NCBI RefSeq assembly: GCF_034522235.1 | Contig: NZ_JAXHLN010000003.1 | Location: forward strand, 744,001 to 808,000 | Origin: Thiohalophilus sp. | GTDB lineage: Bacteria > Pseudomonadota > Gammaproteobacteria > UBA6429 > Thiohalophilaceae | Direction: 5' to 3' | DNA length: 64,000 nt | Shown: positions 16,829 to 61,996 of the stretch, piece by piece | Layout of the letters: each line of letters opens with the position of its first letter | How positions within the stretch are numbered: position 1 is the stretch's first letter | Made by a program: the position numbers and the translations under genes | The notes under the pieces: model-generated | What the model saw: only the letters and a program-made list of their open reading frames with translations | The model's database searches: none | What the model was told of the DNA's origin: nothing

Positions 16829-17057
16829 AACCGGCTGTCCCGGGCCGTTTTGCGACGAGCCCACCGGGGGAAAAATCGTATTCAATGACTGATTTGGCTG
16901 GCTTGTTGAGTGGTTATGCTGTAATGTATATCAGTAACAGTTTCATCTAGTCGTTCCGGAAGTTCCTCTTGCAGTGTATTCAGCAGATTCTCCCGAAATT
17001 TCTAAGTATCAAACTGTCTGTAATACATTGTTTTTTAATATATTAAAGAGGTTCCGT
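16829..17057 (+). promoter_or_regulatory. Long AT-rich leader upstream of the cold-shock gene
   Basis: A 229-bp gap that becomes AT-rich toward the csp start codon (runs of TTTTTTAATATATTAAAGAG just before it). Long structured 5' leaders are typical of cspA-type genes, where they act as thermosensors. I see no clear -10/-35 pair, so the transcript start is not assigned. The Shine-Dalgarno AAGAGG lies close to the ATG at 17058. Confidence 0.4.
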
Positions 17058-17261
17058 ATGAGCACAGGTACAGTTAAGTGGTTTAACGACAGTAAAGGTT
17101 TTGGCTTTATTACCCCGAGCGAAGGTGGCGATGACGTATTCGTTCATCATTCCGCCATCCAGGGCAGTGGGTTTAAATCCCTGGCGGAAGGTCAGCAGGT
17201 CACGTTTGACACCGAACGCGGTCAAAAAGGCCTGAGCGCGACCAACGTCACCCCGCAATAA
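17058..17261 (+). CDS. Cold-shock protein, CspA family
   Basis: A 67-residue single OB-fold nucleic-acid chaperone. Start at ATG 17058 ([20 protein letters not shown]). RNP1 (KGFGFI) and RNP2 (VFVHHSA) RNA-binding motifs are intact, as is the [11 protein letters not shown]-terminus. The gene is monocistronic: a strong terminator follows 27 bases later. Whether it is cold-induced cannot be told, but the long AT-rich leader fits. Confidence 0.96.
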
Positions 17262-17287
17262 CCCTTATCAGGTCATTGCGACAAAAA

Positions 17288-17313
17288 GCCCCGCCTCAGT
17301 GCGGGGTTTTTTT
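17288..17313 (+). terminator. Rho-independent terminator of the cold-shock gene
   Basis: Stem CCCCGC / GCGGGG with a short loop followed by seven T residues, directly downstream of the csp stop codon. Confidence 0.92.
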
Positions 17314-17705
17314 ATACCCTTTTTTACCCCGTCGCCCCTCAGAACAGACCGCCCCTCCCCGCTAGCGGGCGATCTGTTGCTGCATCAGTGAGTTGCGTAT
17401 ACGGGTGATCTTCTCGGCGTTCTTCTGTCATGCCGCTTCGGTGACTTCCGGCGGGCTGATGCGCATGGTGGGAAGCGCTTGCCGGAAGTCTGTACTCGCC
17501 GGCAATCAGGCCGCGGGGCGTGGTCGTTATCCAGTAAGAGGTACATATTTCATCCCTGCAGATTGACTAACAGGCCATGAAGTAATGCCTGATGCGAGTT
17601 AATTCTTGTTATTTTAAAGGGGAAATCGGAGCGGGGAATAACACAATCCCGCTGAACAGGATGAGATGAATGATACAATTCGCCATCGAAAAAAAGGAAC
17701 AGAGG
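17314..17705. other. Intergenic region with a degenerate coding remnant
   Basis: Nearly 400 bp without an intact gene. On the minus strand around 17360-17560 short interrupted frames (for example EVTEAA*QKNAEKITRIRNS, stop shown as *) suggest a decayed gene of unknown identity. The last about 40 bp contain the Shine-Dalgarno region of chrA. Nothing else recognised. Confidence 0.35.
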
Positions 17706-22240: not shown

Positions 22241-22764
22241 AATCGTAGCAGCACTTTCCCGGTTTTTCGAGGCAGGAAGGGGCTCGTGGTCTGGTATCAG
22301 GGTTACCCCTGATCCAACTAGTGGGCTCTTGAGTCCCGTTAGACGACGCCGAGCATCGCAGTGGAAGGAGGATTTGCCCGTAGGGTGCGCGCATGGACGC
22401 GCGCACTCGCCAGAGGGCCAAGGATGGCCCTTCTGGCGAGCCCGACCGGAGCGAGAAGCGCAGGGAACCGGTTCTGCCATTGGAAATGGCTGAACCGGCG
22501 GCGTCTTTCGGGCGCGTTTTCTTTGGTTCTGTTTCTTTGTCGCGTGACAAAGAAATGAACCCGAGGCGCGCTGGCGGGTCAGCGCTTTCAAGATCAGGGA
22601 CGCCCGCAGGGCGAACCTTTTTTAAAGACTGGATTGTCTCGCCACATCCCCGTGGCTCTCCCTTCGGGCGCACTAAAGTGCGATCAAATTTGTTCCGGAC
22701 AAATTTGTTCGGCTCAAGGCCGGAGTGACGAGACTGTCGGAAGCTGAACATTGCAGCTAAAAGA
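22241..22764. repeat. Non-coding repetitive region with a CAAATTTG palindrome
   Basis: About 520 bp with frames but no protein family I recognise. It contains several inverted repeats (for example CTCGCCAGAGGGCCA...TGGCCCTTCTGGCGAG at 22408-22443 and TTCTTTGTCGCGTGACAAAGAA near 22530) and, at 22616-22740, a segment shared with 23411-23530 that includes CAAATTTGTTCCGGACAAAT. The same palindrome recurs in each 186-bp unit downstream of tRNA-Gln. I read the region as dispersed repetitive, possibly structured, DNA. Confidence 0.6.
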
Positions 22765-23393: not shown

Positions 23394-23530
23394 GGCGAAT
23401 GCCCGGGTCTCAAGGCTGGATTGTCTCGCCACATCCCTGTGGCTCGCCCTTTGGGCACACTAAAGTGCGACCAAATTTGTTCCTGACAAATTTGTCCGGG
23501 TCGCGCCTCCGCCTCGCCCGGAATGACGAT
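23394..23530. repeat. Second copy of the dispersed CAAATTTG repeat
   Basis: The segment beginning AAGGCTGGATTGTCTCGCC and continuing through CAAATTTGTTCCTGACAAAT is about 85 percent identical by eye to 22616-22740, in the same orientation. The two copies flank the higBA operon. Confidence 0.75.
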
Positions 23531-30232: not shown

Positions 30233-31093
30233 ATGCGCGGATCCGCATTGACCGATCCTGGGTGGTGGCCGGCCCCGGCCAAGCTGAACCTGTTTTTGCA
30301 TATCACCGGCCGCCGGGATGACGGCTATCATCTGTTGCAGACGGTCTTCCAGTTGCTCGATTACGGCGACCGGCTGGCATTTTCCCTGCGTGATGACGGG
30401 GCGATCCATCGGGTGACGGAGCTGGCGGGTGTGCCGGCCGGGCAGGATCTGGTGGTGCGTGCGGCGCGCCTCTTGCAGGAGGCCGGCGGCGTCGAGACTG
30501 GCGTGGATATCCGTGTCGATAAGCGCCTGCCGATGGGCGGGGGGCTGGGCGGCGGCAGCTCCAACGCCGCCACCACGCTGGTGGCGCTCAACCACCTGTG
30601 GGCTACCCGGCTGGGGGAGGACGAACTGGCGGAACTGGGCGCGCAACTGGGGGCCGACGTGCCGGTCTTCGTGCGCGGCCACAGCGCCTGGGCCGAGGGT
30701 GTCGGCGAGCAATTGCAGTCGCTGGATCTGCCAAAGCGCTGGTATCTGGTATTGATTCCGCCGGTAACTGTCTCAACAGCGGCGATTTTCTCTGATTCGC
30801 ATTTGCGGCGGGATTGCCCACCCATTACAATACGCGACTTTCTGGCCGCGCCCGAAAGTCCGCAATGGGGCAACGTCTGTGAAGCGCCGGTCCGCGCCCG
30901 CTACCCTGAAGTAGCCGCGGCTCTGGAGGCGCTCGACGCCCTGGCTCCGGCCCGCCTGACCGGCACCGGCGCCTGCGTCTTCGCGGCATTCGAAAGCGAG
31001 GCGGCCGCCAACGCCGCCTGGCAGCAACTGGCCAAAAACTGGCAGGGATTCGTGGCCCGGGGCGTCAACGAATCACCTTTAATACAGTACTGA
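30233..31093 (+). CDS. ispE: 4-diphosphocytidyl-2-C-methyl-D-erythritol kinase
   Basis: GHMP-family kinase of the MEP isoprenoid pathway. From ATG 30233 it has 286 residues with PAKLNLFLHITGRRDDGYH at the N-terminus, the ATP loop PMGGGLGGGSSNAATTL near 100-116, GADVPVF (catalytic Asp) and the C-terminal LTGTGACVFA glycine motif. The TGA stop at 31091 is also the first base triplet of a seven-unit heptamer array. Confidence 0.96.
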   Translation: MRGSALTDPGWWPAPAKLNLFLHITGRRDDGYHLLQTVFQLLDYGDRLAFSLRDDGAIHRVTELAGVPAGQDLVVRAARLLQEAGGVETGVDIRVDKRLPMGGGLGGGSSNAATTLVALNHLWATRLGEDELAELGAQLGADVPVFVRGHSAWAEGVGEQLQSLDLPKRWYLVLIPPVTVSTAAIFSDSHLRRDCPPITIRDFLAAPESPQWGNVCEAPVRARYPEVAAALEALDALAPARLTGTGACVFAAFESEAAANAAWQQLAKNWQGFVARGVNESPLIQY

Positions 31094-31139
31094 GTGCTAA
31101 GTTCTTAGTACTTGGTACTTGGTACTTAGGACTGAGAAC
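31091..31139. repeat. Heptamer array between ispE and tRNA-Gln
   Basis: Seven units in exact 7-base register: TGAGTGC, TAAGTTC, TTAGTAC, TTGGTAC, TTGGTAC, TTAGGAC, TGAGAAC. It begins with the ispE stop codon and ends 7 bases before tRNA-Gln. The complementary family appears at 39751-39785. Confidence 0.88.
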
Positions 31140-31146
31140 TATTATT

Positions 31147-31221
31147 TGGGGTGTAGCCAAGCGGTAAGGCACTGGATTTTGATTCCAGCATGCGCAGGTT
31201 CGAATCCTGCCACCCCAGCCA
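31147..31221 (+). tRNA. tRNA-Gln (anticodon TTG)
   Basis: Full cloverleaf by eye: acceptor TGGGGTG / CACCCCA, D-loop AGCCAAGCGGTAAGGC, anticodon loop TTTTGAT giving TTG, T-arm GCAGGTTCGAATCCTGC and encoded CCA. It sits between ispE and prs, as in many gammaproteobacteria. Together with gatCAB, glutaminylation route cannot be decided here. Confidence 0.97.
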
Positions 31222-31779
31222 TAAATGTGAGCAAGGCTGATCGACAGCGTCCGGTATTGAACTAACGACGCTGAGGCGAGGCAGGATGAGAACCGTAAAA
31301 GGTTCGACAAATTTGTCCGGAACAAATTTGAACCGGGGAGCACAGCGACACGGGCCCCGAAGGGGCGAGGCGCAGGGAAGCGCCGAGTAATCCTGCCACC
31401 CCAGCCATAAATGTGAGCAAGGCTGATCGACAGCGTCCGGTATTGAACTAACGACGCTGAGGCGAGGCAGGATGAGAACCGTAAAAGGTTCGACAAATTT
31501 GTCCGGAACAAATTTGAACCGGGGAGCACAGCGACACGGGCCCCGAAGGGGCGAGGCGCAGGGAAGCGCCGAGTAATCCTGCCACCCCAGCCATAAATGT
31601 GAGCAAGGCTGATCGACAGCGTCCGGTATTGAACTAACGACGCTGAGGCGAGGCAGGATGAGAACCGTAAAAGGTTCGACAAATTTGTCCGGAACAAATT
31701 TGAACCGGGGAGCACAGCGACACGGGCCCCGAAGGGGCGAGGCGCAGGGAAGCGCCGAGTAATCCTGCCACCCCAGCCA
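31222..31779 (+). repeat. Three 186-bp tandem repeats, each ending in the tRNA-Gln 3' end
   Basis: Three essentially identical 186-bp units (ends at 31407, 31593, 31779). Each begins TAAATGTGAGCAAGG, contains GGCAGGAT, AGGTTCGA and the palindrome CAAATTTGTCC...AACAAATTTG, and ends with the last 19 bases of the tRNA-Gln gene including CCA (AATCCTGCCACCCCAGCCA). Thus the original 3' end is at 31221 and three copies follow. GGCAGGAT inside the unit could pair with ATCCTGCC at its end. Minus-strand frames across the array are by-products of the 186 = 3 x 62 period. Confidence 0.95.
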
Positions 31780-31898
31780 TTAATTTTGCGATGGTCGGTT
31801 AACAAGTGAGATCATCGCAAGGCGATAACGGGTCAAGACAAGGCAGGATAAGCGTTCTGCAGGGTTCACATGTTTTTCAAGCTGCCACGCCAGGCGAA
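31780..31898. other. Leader of prs with a diverged fourth repeat unit
   Basis: The sequence AAGTGAGATCATCGCAAGGCGATAAC followed by AAGGCAGGATAAGCGTTCTGCAGGGTTCAC follows the outline of the 186-bp unit (GTGAGCAAGGC..., GGCAGGATGAG..., AGGTTC) but is strongly diverged and shorter. The prs promoter is presumably here; none assigned. Confidence 0.4.
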
Positions 31899-32897
31899 AT
31901 GATGCTAAACAATCGACCAGAACTGGATCTCCCCGGGAACCGTGCCGCCGAGCGCAGCATGATGATCTTCGCGGGCAATGCCAACCCGCAACTGGCGCAG
32001 GACATTACCGCGCGTCTGAGCATGCCGCTGGGCAAGGCGCTGGTGGGCAAGTTCAGCGACGACGAGGTCATGGTGGAGATCATGGAAAATGTCCGCGGCA
32101 AGGACATTTTCATCGTCCAGCCCACCTGCCGTCCGTCGAACGACAATTTGATGGAACTGCTGGTCATGGTCGATGCGCTGCGCCGTTCCTCGGCCGCGCG
32201 TATCACTGCCGTGATTCCGTACTTCGGTTACGCGCGCCAGGATCGCCGGCCGCGTTCGGCGCGGGTGCCGATCACCGCCAAGGTGGTGGCTGACATGATC
32301 AGCGCGGCCGGGACCGACCGGGTACTGACCGTGGATCTGCATGCCGATCAGATCCAGGGCTTTTTCAACATCCCGGTGGACAATGTCTATGCCTCGCCGA
32401 TTTTGCTGGGCGATGTCTGGCGTCAGAAGTATCCGAATCTGATGGTGGTCTCGCCCGATGTGGGCGGCGTGGTTCGCGCCCGGGCCCTGGCCAAGCGACT
32501 GGACGACGCGGACCTGGCGATTATCGACAAGCGCCGGCCGCGCGCCAACGAAGCGCGGGTGATGAACATTATCGGCGATGTGCGGGATCGCACCTGCATC
32601 ATTGTCGACGATCTGGTGGATACCGCCGGCACGCTGTGCAAGGCGGCCAACGCGCTCAAGGAACACGGGGCACGCAAGGTGGTCGCGTACTGCACCCACC
32701 CGGTATTGTCCGGCCCGGCGGTGGATAACATTACTCACTCGGCGCTGGACGAGCTGGTGGTGACCGACACCATTCCGTTGTCGCCCGCCGCCAGCAAGTG
32801 TCCGAATGTTCGGCAGCTGAGTATCGCCGAGTTGCTGGCGGAGACCATCCGTCGTATCAGCAGCGAAGAATCGGTCAGCAGTCTGTTTGTCGACTGA
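31899..32897 (+). CDS. prs: Ribose-phosphate pyrophosphokinase
   Basis: Makes PRPP from ribose 5-phosphate and ATP for nucleotide, His and Trp synthesis. The conserved protein begins [20 protein letters not shown]; ATGs at 31899, 31902 and 31959 are all possible, the last giving about 312 residues as in E. coli, the first adding about 20. Visible are the metal/ATP site [13 protein letters not shown] and the PRPP loop [14 protein letters not shown] near 220 (of the short form). Followed 97 bases later by rplY, a common arrangement. Confidence 0.95.
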
Positions 32898-42912: not shown

Positions 42913-43372
42913 AACTGCCAACTCTCTACACAATCCCTGTGGGAGCGGGCTTCGACCGCGACGGTGCCAGATTCGGCAGTCGCGCCCGTGGGGCGCTCCT
43001 ACAGACTCACTATTCAGCCGTAGGTCACATTGGCGAAGCCTATGTGACGAATCCCGGTCTACGCTGCCGGGTTTAAATTCAACATTCAAAATTCATCATT
43101 TAAAATTTCTCTGCCAACTGCCAACTGCCAACTGCCAACTGCCAACTGCCAACTGCCAACTGCCAACTCTCGACACAATCCCTGTGGGAGCGGGCTTTGA
43201 CCGCGACGGTGCCAGATTCGGCAGTCGCGCCCGTGGGGCGCTCCTACAGACTCACTATTCAGCCGTAGGTCACATTGGCGAAGCCTATGTGACGAATCCC
43301 GGTCTACGCTGCCGGGTTTAAATTCAACATTCAAAATTCATCATTTAAAATTTCTCTTCCAACTGCCAACTC
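42911..43372. repeat. 245-bp tandem duplication with REP pair and CTGCCAA array
   Basis: Two copies, about 42911-43127 and 43156-43372, offset by 245 bp and nearly identical. Each carries two inverted REP-like sequences (TGTGGGAGCGGGCTT and GGGGCGCTCCTACAG) and an AT-rich tail. Between them eight perfect CTGCCAA heptamers run from 43111 to 43166. No gene in the 550-bp gap. Confidence 0.92.
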
Positions 43373-60834: not shown

Positions 60835-61435
60835 ATTAACGCGGAGGTCGCGGAGCCGCAGAGGGTGAAAAAAACTATAATTTTTCCTCGTTATAATAAA
60901 ACCCGGTTCGTCGAACACCATAAAATGAGATGATTTATGAAGTGAGGTTAGTGGTAGGCCGGACATAGCAAAGCGGCGTCCGGCAATCAGAGGTGTTGCC
61001 CGATACCGCCTTGCTTTATAGGGCCTACGACTAAAAAACTATAATTTTTCTCGTGTAACAACCCCGAATTGTAGAACACCATAGAATAAGAGAGTTCAAA
61101 AGGATTTTTTCTCCGCGGCTCTGCGGCTCCGCGACCTCCGCGTTAATCAGACAGGAATCTGTTAGAGACGGATTTATTCACTTTCATCGTCTGATGAGTG
61201 GTAGGCCGGACATAGCAAAGCGGTGTCCGGCAATCAGAGGTGTTGCCCGATACCGCCTTGCTTTATAGGGCCTACGACTAAAAAACTATAATTTTTCTCG
61301 TGCAACAACCCCGAATTGTAGAACACCATAGAATAAGAGAATTCAAAAGGATTTTTTCTCTGCGGCTCTGCGCCTCCGCGACCTCCGCGTTAATCAGACA
61401 GGAATTTGTTAGAGACGGATTTATTCGCTTTCATC
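60835..61435. repeat. 247-bp tandem duplication with REP-like palindromes
   Basis: Two near-identical copies, 60951-61197 and 61198-61435, plus a weaker partial copy at 60835-60940. Each has an inverted pair GTAGGCCGGACATAGCAAAG ... CTTGCTTTATAGGGCCTAC, an AAAAAACTATAATTTTT hairpin and a TCTGCGGCTC-GCGACCTCCGCG palindrome. The end of each copy holds the last codons of the neighbouring gene 61421-61996 (TTATTCRCTTTCATC), so that 3' end was duplicated too. Confidence 0.92.
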
Positions 61436-61996
61436 ATCGGATGAGACCGGCAGGGGCTTCTGGCCGGGGTAGGCGAAGTACTGGCGTGGCGCCGTGTCGG
61501 ACTGCTGGCCGGTGTTGATGTTGAACTTCCCGCGTTTGGGCTTCATCAGGATGACGTCGCTCTTGCGGGTGATGTCGATATCGTGTTCGAGCAATACCCG
61601 GCGATGTCGCTCACAGACTTCGTCGGATTCACGGCGCAGCAGGGCCTGGACATCCCGGCCCCGCAGCCAGTTATAGGCGGTGCGCCTGTACGGATAGGGG
61701 ATTTCCATGATCTCGTTGATCAGGGTTTCCAGCTCGCTCGGTGAGGCGTTGCGATCTTTCTGGCTGCAGAATTGAATGATGTACTGATAGCGGTCCTGCT
61801 CGTCCAGCTGCCCGATATGCCGGGCGGCCCGATCGGCATCCTCAAAACGGAGGGCCTCCTTGATCGGCACCAGCTGGTTGTCGGGGCCGACAAAGATATC
61901 GCACCTGGCAAGCCGGGACTGTTCGGCGCTGAGCTGGCGCTCGATGCGAATCACGAAATACTCGTCGAAACGACTGTCGGTTTGATTCGGATCCAT
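61421..61996 (-). CDS. Conserved hypothetical protein
   Basis: From ATG 61996 (MDPNQTDSRFDEYFVIRIER) a 191-residue soluble, charged protein I cannot name. PYPYRRTAYNWLRGRDVQAL and HRRVLLEHDIDITRKSDVIL are the best conserved-looking parts; the C-terminus ends SDDESE. A 22-residue upstream extension in frame lacks support. It is divergent from the histidine kinase. The last codons are present again in the tandem repeat downstream. Confidence 0.6.
   Translation of the reverse strand: MDPNQTDSRFDEYFVIRIERQLSAEQSRLARCDIFVGPDNQLVPIKEALRFEDADRAARHIGQLDEQDRYQYIIQFCSQKDRNASPSELETLINEIMEIPYPYRRTAYNWLRGRDVQALLRRESDEVCERHRRVLLEHDIDITRKSDVILMKPKRGKFNINTGQQSDTAPRQYFAYPGQKPLPVSSDDESE

Follow-up and report, generated by a model that had tools for sequence, protein, structure and literature searches.

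Directly behind the tRNA-Gln(TTG) gene of a Thiohalophilus sp. genome lies an array of three identical 186-bp units, which we identify as a tRNA-linked repeat (TLR) locus, a new example of an already known class, and which, judging from the sequence, very likely encodes an RNA with a fold under selection. The most telling result of the analysis is the link of the TLR to the tRNA tail: the 5′ arm of the stem that closes each unit pairs with the unit's own copy of the tRNA 3′ end and varies with that tail across genomes, which argues for selection on the fold. As set out in the accessible portions of PMC8144298, TLRs were first described in 1978 and number 22 in E. coli K-12, distributed over ten loci with one to five at each, every one of them ending in 18-19 bp shared exactly with the 3′ end of the tRNA or rRNA gene upstream. 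RtT is the E. coli tyrT repeat. The same portions describe RrA, RrB and RrF (RrA/B/F) as 5S-linked TLRs that give processed RNAs, and state that, the paper's own evidence on these three aside, TLRs so far lack a known function (PMC8144298).

In the window, by which we mean the whole 64,000-nucleotide stretch of DNA that was analyzed, the array (31222-31779) starts at the base directly after tRNA-Gln, and the two are flanked by open frames that, by eye, we take to be ispE and prs (Table 1). TRF returns a 186-bp period in 3.1 copies with 99% matches (31203-31784), and the repeat search three 210-nt copies that are 100% identical at spacings of 186 and 186, with identity among the three units spanning 558 bp. 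Both searches thus confirm the three exact units of the original prediction, and its claim that each closes with the last 19 tRNA bases including CCA holds in 3/3 units; in tRNA numbering, this tail presumably runs from A58 of the T-loop to CCA. Each unit is laid out as a spacer, an arm, hairpins P2-P6 and the 19-nt tail, and the P1 arm offsets in units 2 and 3 are those of unit 1. The complement of the tRNA end that had been noticed inside the unit proves to be this arm, GGCAGGAT, the reverse complement of ATCCTGCC in the tail, and the T-loop-like sequence AGGTTCGA is likewise present. A palindrome said to recur elsewhere does so: the hairpin sequence CAAATTTG, searched as a 25-base pattern with two N and at most two mismatches, has five occurrences in the window, of which three fall in the units and two lie at other sites, against a mean of 0 in 100 shuffles.

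Table 1. Features of the tRNA-Gln locus, in window coordinates
Feature	Position	Strand	Evidence	Remark
tRNA-Gln(TTG)	31147-31221	+	ARAGORN; Rfam, 70.1 bits	encoded CCA; source of the 19-nt tail
TLR unit 1, 186 nt	31222-31407	+	TRF, repeat search, RtT (37.9 bits)	
TLR unit 2	31408-31593	+	repeat search, RtT	identical in sequence to unit 1
TLR unit 3	31594-31779	+	repeat search, RtT	identical in sequence to unit 1
P1 5′ arm of unit 1 (GGCAGGAT)	31280-31287	+	fold z −5.1; covariation across loci	pairs with 31390-31397
P2 hairpin, unit 1	31290-31305	+	alignment of 31 units	GAACC/GGTTC
P3 hairpin, unit 1	31308-31330	+		loop GGA at 31319-31321; candidate CsrA site
P6 hairpin, unit 1	31369-31384	+		loop AGGGAA, GGA at 31376-31378; candidate CsrA site
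Tail copies	31389-31407, 31575-31593, 31761-31779	+		last 19 nt of tRNA-Gln
Fourth unit, decayed and shortened	31780-31893 (end approximate)	+	alignment	of the type standing first in the sister species

The diverged fourth unit suspected at 31780 is real: its alignment to the sister species' first unit scores 117, where the best of 300 single-base shuffles reaches 41, and its alignment to the exact window unit 25, and it keeps the arm GGCAGGAT at 31842-31849 along with a damaged tail at 31882-31893. Elsewhere in the window, two copies of the P3-P6 module lie on the minus strand at 22638-22722 and 23404-23522 with GGA loops kept and no tRNA nearby, and further orphan P3-P6 copies are found in the genome (L238-L240, L243, L245), some of them within a dispersed CATTCCGG...AATCCAG-type repeat. 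The window also holds two other tandem duplications (42913-43371, 245 bp × 1.9; 60950-61445, 247 bp × 2.0) and a cspA thermoregulator RNA (16897-17314, 91.6 bits).

The array shares the traits by which TLRs are recognized, namely a position directly downstream of a tRNA or rRNA gene, an 18-19 bp 3′ identity with that gene (here 19 nt in all three units) and one to five copies per locus (here three intact and one decayed). In the sensitive mode of Rfam each unit matches RtT (RF00391) over the full model length at 37.9 bits (E 1.3e-5), which falls short of the 45-bit gathering cut-off, and at the curated threshold the units are without a match. Hits of the units to AaHKsRNA22 (22.5 bits, cut-off 39.8) and PhotoRC-I (14 of 45 bits) were taken as chance matches. 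Like the tyrT repeats (RtT, also RttR), the units stand directly 3′ of a tRNA, repeat its last 19 nt in tandem units of ~180 bp, contain a GGATGAGAA...AAGGTTCGA core and an AATCC-tail, and carry an arm complementary to the tail (GGGGAAGGAT/ATCCTTCCCC in tyrT); they differ from them in following tRNA-Gln at a score below the RtT cut-off and in having GGA in the P3 and P6 loops. RrA, RrB and RrF for their part show a similar hairpin order with GGA in two loops (CCGGGAG, CAGGACG), and their alignment with the window unit scores 40, modestly above the highest value of 33 among 300 single-base shuffles. These TLRs are 5S rRNA-linked single units, however, whereas the window locus is tRNA-linked and has three, and the GATGAGAACC/GGTTCGAC stem was not seen in them by eye. 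3′ETS-leuZ likewise derives from the 3′ portion of a tRNA transcript and is regulatory, acting by pairing to sRNAs, but a tail copy and a TLR fold are absent from its description in the accessible text of PMC8144298.

The predicted fold of a single unit has several hairpins and is closed by P1, the stem between the 5′ arm and the copied tRNA tail; none of 200 shuffles folds as well (z −5.1). Covariation folding across relatives, suggested as a check in the original prediction, bears this fold out: in an alignment of 31 of 37 loci (those with exactly five predicted hairpins among 80 units that follow a tRNA and carry a copy of its tail, six being left out by eye), 86.6% of the named-structure cells pair, and the covariation score of 0.376 compares with 0.127 ± 0.010 for shuffled and at most 0.093 for slid alignments. 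The same alignment shows many double changes in P1, P3 and P6, the number of pairs with a double change being not above that in shuffles (270/500 as high), and RNAalifold recovers P1 unaided. The invariance of P2 in the 31 units is no evidence for the fold, as the search pattern demanded the P2 letters.

The fit between arm and tail was also measured free of any alignment. Against the tail of its own tRNA the arm pairs at 4.29 of 6 positions, compared with 3.27 after permutation (0/10,000; 51 unique pairs), and against the unit's own tail copy (tRNA positions 63-68) at 4.31 of 6 compared with 2.87 (0/40,000, with one unit taken per distinct tail and 36 tails); when one defect is allowed, 7.99 pairs form with the own tail copy versus 5.74 (77 units). 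The match is not universal, with three or fewer P1 pairs in 14 of the 77 units, and in the median unit the own tail is equalled or bettered by 13% of foreign ones. Since P1 often extends into the acceptor strand, it resembles a T-stem plus part of an acceptor stem with a CCA overhang. The original prediction did not name the class, and this tracking of the tRNA by the arm at other loci is invisible from the window.

The units behind tRNA-Gln differ between relatives. The orthologous locus was traced by a prs search of 36 genomes, which gave 35 matches and 30 loci, 27 of them with tRNA-Gln; units follow that gene in 8 of the 27 genomes (the window's own included) and are missing in the other 19, with presence and absence both occurring within genera g5 and g6. 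The sister species carries two different unit types, in an order reversed relative to the window. Unit counting in relatives, likewise proposed at the outset, thus reveals differences in both number and order, from which it follows that copy number turns over; in the accessible portions of PMC2658671, the rtT of Salmonella strains similarly differs as a 175-bp tandem repeat. Recombination between repeats most likely changes the copy number, an explanation that covers gain and loss and not the first arrival at a new tRNA. Of the three options originally offered for the array, a co-transcribed series of structured RNAs is therefore the one best supported, by the covariation, the conserved hairpins and the known class as far as its published account was accessible, and unequal crossing-over fits the change in copy number, from three identical units in the window to a pair of differing ones in the sister species and no unit at all in many relatives. 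Site-specific integrase insertion finds no positive support in a reading of the ORF list, where the neighboring frames look like ispE and prs, and is not favored; the 186-bp unit holds no integrase gene and leaves no room for one.

Within the genome from which the window derives, searches with RtT and with R1, a covariance model built from the 31 aligned units (the window unit and two others of this genome among them), place units behind eight tRNA genes. RtT matches follow tRNA-Arg(CCG), Ser(TGA), Ser(GGA), Val(GAC), Gln and a split tRNA-Arg, and R1 adds tRNA-Arg(ACG) and a second tRNA-Arg(CCG). At E up to 1, R1 gives 20 matches in this genome, of which 12 lie behind a tRNA when the array units are counted; 18 were inspected, the other two being array units 2 and 3, and ten of these stand behind a tRNA and eight elsewhere. 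The R1 score of the window unit itself, 110.2 bits, is partly a matter of construction, since unit 1 is among the 31 units of the model, and the same holds for the R1 matches of the two other units of this genome that went into it.

Several of these loci have features of their own. The split tRNA-Arg gene (L009, minus strand, ~1500-2030) is interrupted by an intron-like ~250 nt, and the tail of the TLR after it matches that split tRNA; a group I intron was considered on account of the by-eye resemblance and set aside, as no Rfam intron match appears up to E 1. At G000:C3:1686394-1686528 (L244 1501-1635), the 5′ portion of a tRNA-Ser passes into a TLR module that has an extra GGA-hairpin cluster; the motif of this cluster was found in two copies in the genome, and in the sister species one unit (L156) is broken up by a similar cluster. 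The tail copy of the TLR behind tRNA-Ser(GGA) (L008, minus strand) is interrupted by roughly 48 bp. Below its cut-off, sX4 (RF02223) matches three tRNA-Ser loci.

Beyond this genome, a strict core pattern was run on 369 genomes sampled from the class with the reversed pattern as control, and gave 73 matches in 40 genomes, the window's own included, as against none for the reversed pattern among the same 369. A tRNA lies upstream on the same strand within 900 nt for 33 of 37 core matches (30 loci of the class sample) and within 120 nt for 25; of the four matches without such a tRNA, two are at contig ends and two in apparent coding sequence. In a named collection, among the matches listed, a tRNA stands within 900 nt of 97 of 129 core matches (116 loci) and within 120 nt of 83, and 47 of those 83 have a tail copy by the strict test. 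Taking the 120-nt distance and the groups named in the record titles, 125 of these 129 matches were tabulated, the other four dropping out as duplicate sequences or as lying less than about 30 nt from a contig end; among the matches listed, the counts are 44/62 for Gamma, 10/16 for Alpha, 1/4 for Beta, 5/6 for Bacteroidetes, 5/9 for Verrucomicrobia, 3/5 for Archaea and 11/13 for unassigned proteobacteria and bacteria, together with a single locus in Gracilibacteria with a tail copy, single loci in Saccharibacteria, Delta and Auribacterota without one, and no match with a tRNA in Chloroflexi (2), Chlamydiae (2, near contig end), Gemmatimonadetes (1) or Planctomycetes (1). At E up to 1e-4, R1 finds matches in 53 of 200 genomes of the phylum, again including the window's own, and 25 of the best 29 R1 loci outside that genome have an upstream tRNA, 19 of the 25 with a tail copy.

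The archaeal contigs encode archaeal-type proteins, among them S3Ae, L10P with its insert domain, and wyosine and diphthamide enzymes. In genomes related to one of these contigs the core matches 6 of 137, with one match of the reversed control, and 10 of 11 core matches at nine archaeal-relative loci have an upstream tRNA (Gln, Leu or Arg), 6 of them within 120 nt. Judged by eye, arm pairing is uneven there, with about nine pairs at one tRNA-Leu and little at tRNA-Gln. The archaeal tail copies, where seen (L111, L128, L150, L217-L225), end without CCA like the local tRNA genes.

When one unit was looked up among 5426 E. coli genomes, 152 of them matched it in part; the match spans 41% of the query in the best 15 of the 152, and the two matches inspected lie between queA and acpH, away from annotated tRNA. 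This queA-acpH module (L153, ~1490-1590) is TLR-like and has GGA loops. Known reports, to the extent of the accessible text of each, concern TLRs in E. coli, the conservation of rrA/B/F within Enterobacterales (PMC8144298), RtT-family RNAs detected by RT-PCR in Actinobacillus of the Pasteurellaceae (PMC4986893), an RtT RNA upregulated in the cold in Thioalkalivibrio (PMC8092127) and rtT-like attenuator candidates in enterobacterial BIME repeats, away from tRNAs (PMC2965389). The TLR class thus seems far wider than the literature describes.

A further regularity lies in the hairpin loops, where GGA constitutes the canonical CsrA motif (PMC8144298, accessible portions). The 80 folded units have 350 hairpin loops, and 83 of these contain GGA, against 36.4 in dinucleotide shuffles. 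Across the 31 aligned units, such loops number 22 in P3, 20 in P6, 2 in P2, 2 in P4 and 4 in P5, a tally that is somewhat favorable because the six loci left out by eye have only 3 GGA loops together. Each window unit has GGA in its predicted P3 and P6 loops, and the genome encodes csrA (PF02599, E 9.2e-26). The gene scores above cut-off in 50 of 73 unit-bearing genomes, one weak below-cut-off match being counted as absent; genomes with csrA have 76 GGA loops where 26.1 are expected, and those without it 7 where 10.3 are expected. At least one GGA loop occurs in 32 of the 50 and in 5 of the 23, respectively (Fisher p 0.001, kinship uncorrected), a correlation that is confounded with phylogeny and in which some of the csrA-negative genomes are incomplete; the remaining 18 of the 50 csrA-positive genomes have no GGA loop. 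Five genomes (G008, G034, G047, G155, G281) have csrA on the same strand as a TLR core and ~230 to 700 bases upstream of it, which makes the gene and its candidate sponge neighbors.

The alignment places GGA of E. coli RrB in the two hairpins that correspond to P3 and P6 of the window unit. According to the accessible text of PMC8144298, RrB binds CsrA in vitro at ~100 nM and gives no shift in the tested range once three GGA are changed, and its authors think that it arises through read-through of the first terminator; the effects of deleting rrA/B/F are modest and point the same way as those of overexpression, the 19 tRNA-linked E. coli TLRs have CsrA-binding scores below 0.01, and the rrnB T1T2 stretch of common plasmids includes one TLR, rrB. 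The tyrT repeats contain GGA only in the P1 arm and in no loop, so that CsrA binding cannot be the function of all TLRs, a proposal also ruled out by the 18 of 23 csrA-negative genomes that are without GGA loops. The sponge RNAs CsrB, CsrC and RsmX-Z have their own promoters, with ~18 sites in CsrB. Likened by pattern, they resemble the window array in having several hairpins with loop GGA and could work alike, whereas the array hangs on a tRNA.

Together, homology and motif make tRNA-like cutting combined with CsrA titration the best-supported mechanism, and we lean, if only modestly, towards an account in which the tRNA co-transcript is cut at tRNA-like 3′ ends into short CsrA-binding RNAs; transcription, cutting and binding are all steps that we infer. 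RNA polymerase would continue from tRNA-Gln into the array, and the tail copies, with P1 mimicking a T-stem and part of an acceptor stem, would be cut like genuine tRNA 3′ ends, thus freeing short RNAs that end in CCA. These could bind CsrA via their GGA hairpins, two per unit and six in the array, and such binding would couple free CsrA to tRNA transcription, while recombination between repeats would change the number of units. No terminator-like site was found on the plus strand of 30900-32000, no terminator-like hairpin in the spacer of the window unit, and no sigma-70-like promoter in 30900-32000. Of 62 units at other loci, 34 have a terminator-like hairpin separating the tRNA from the core, so that an RNA from these would need read-through, as for rrB.

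The units might instead act in cis, as a trailer module that serves termination, folding or 3′ maturation of the tRNA precursor and in which the GGA loops are incidental. We consider this unlikely, yet it deserves serious attention: the TLRs described in the accessible text of PMC8144298 lie 3′ of stable RNA genes, TLRs are present also in genomes where csrA was not found, and the P1 arm could equally pair with the tRNA's own tail, which has the same sequence. The concentration of GGA in mostly two of five loops speaks against such a role, however, and so do the 19 of 27 genomes that have no unit at the same tRNA, where the unit is thus dispensable for tRNA-Gln. Still less probable in our judgment is a small selfish mobile element residing at tRNA 3′ ends, for which the match of arm and tail would represent base-paired target recognition and the tail itself a carried or duplicated target. 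Its patchy presence (40 of 369 class genomes by the strict pattern, mixed within g5 and g6), the use of several different tRNAs within one genome and the occurrence of the P3-P6 module away from tRNAs would all suit an element of this kind, but the match kept between tail and arm in divergent loci is explained equally well by selection on the fold, and no pair of empty and filled sites with a clean jump was established.

The 558 bp of identical units, the differing number and order in the sister species and the decayed unit left behind, together with the 175-bp rtT repeat that varies among Salmonella strains (PMC2658671, accessible portions), are also what would be expected of an old TLR multiplied neutrally through unequal crossing-over and functionless today. 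That reading appears highly improbable to us in view of P1, P3 and P6, whose compensatory changes between genomes show selection on the fold, though not selection for three copies. A coding role is more improbable by far: an open frame of 246 aa spans the array on the minus strand (ORF 31805-31065), and tpr and ychS are listed at the tyrT repeats in the E. coli record, but the frame passes antisense through the tRNA, the covariation pattern is that of a stem, and the frame is open because three identical units are repeated at 186, a multiple of 3. An antisense protein was rejected on these grounds.

The structured, tRNA-linked RNA therefore remains the reading that we retain, and its tRNA-matched stem is a strong reason to treat TLRs as RNAs under selection, while the GGA loops make TLR function directly testable via CsrA binding. 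The same core in Bacteroidetes, Verrucomicrobia, Gracilibacteria and archaeal contigs would mean an old or widely travelling element. We tentatively raise the possibility, at present a doubtful one, that TLRs form one very wide tRNA-matched RNA family, present in several bacterial phyla and in some archaea, which adapts its closing stem to the tail of the tRNA it happens to follow and moves between tRNA genes, and that in lineages with csrA its GGA hairpins may tie CsrA to tRNA transcription.
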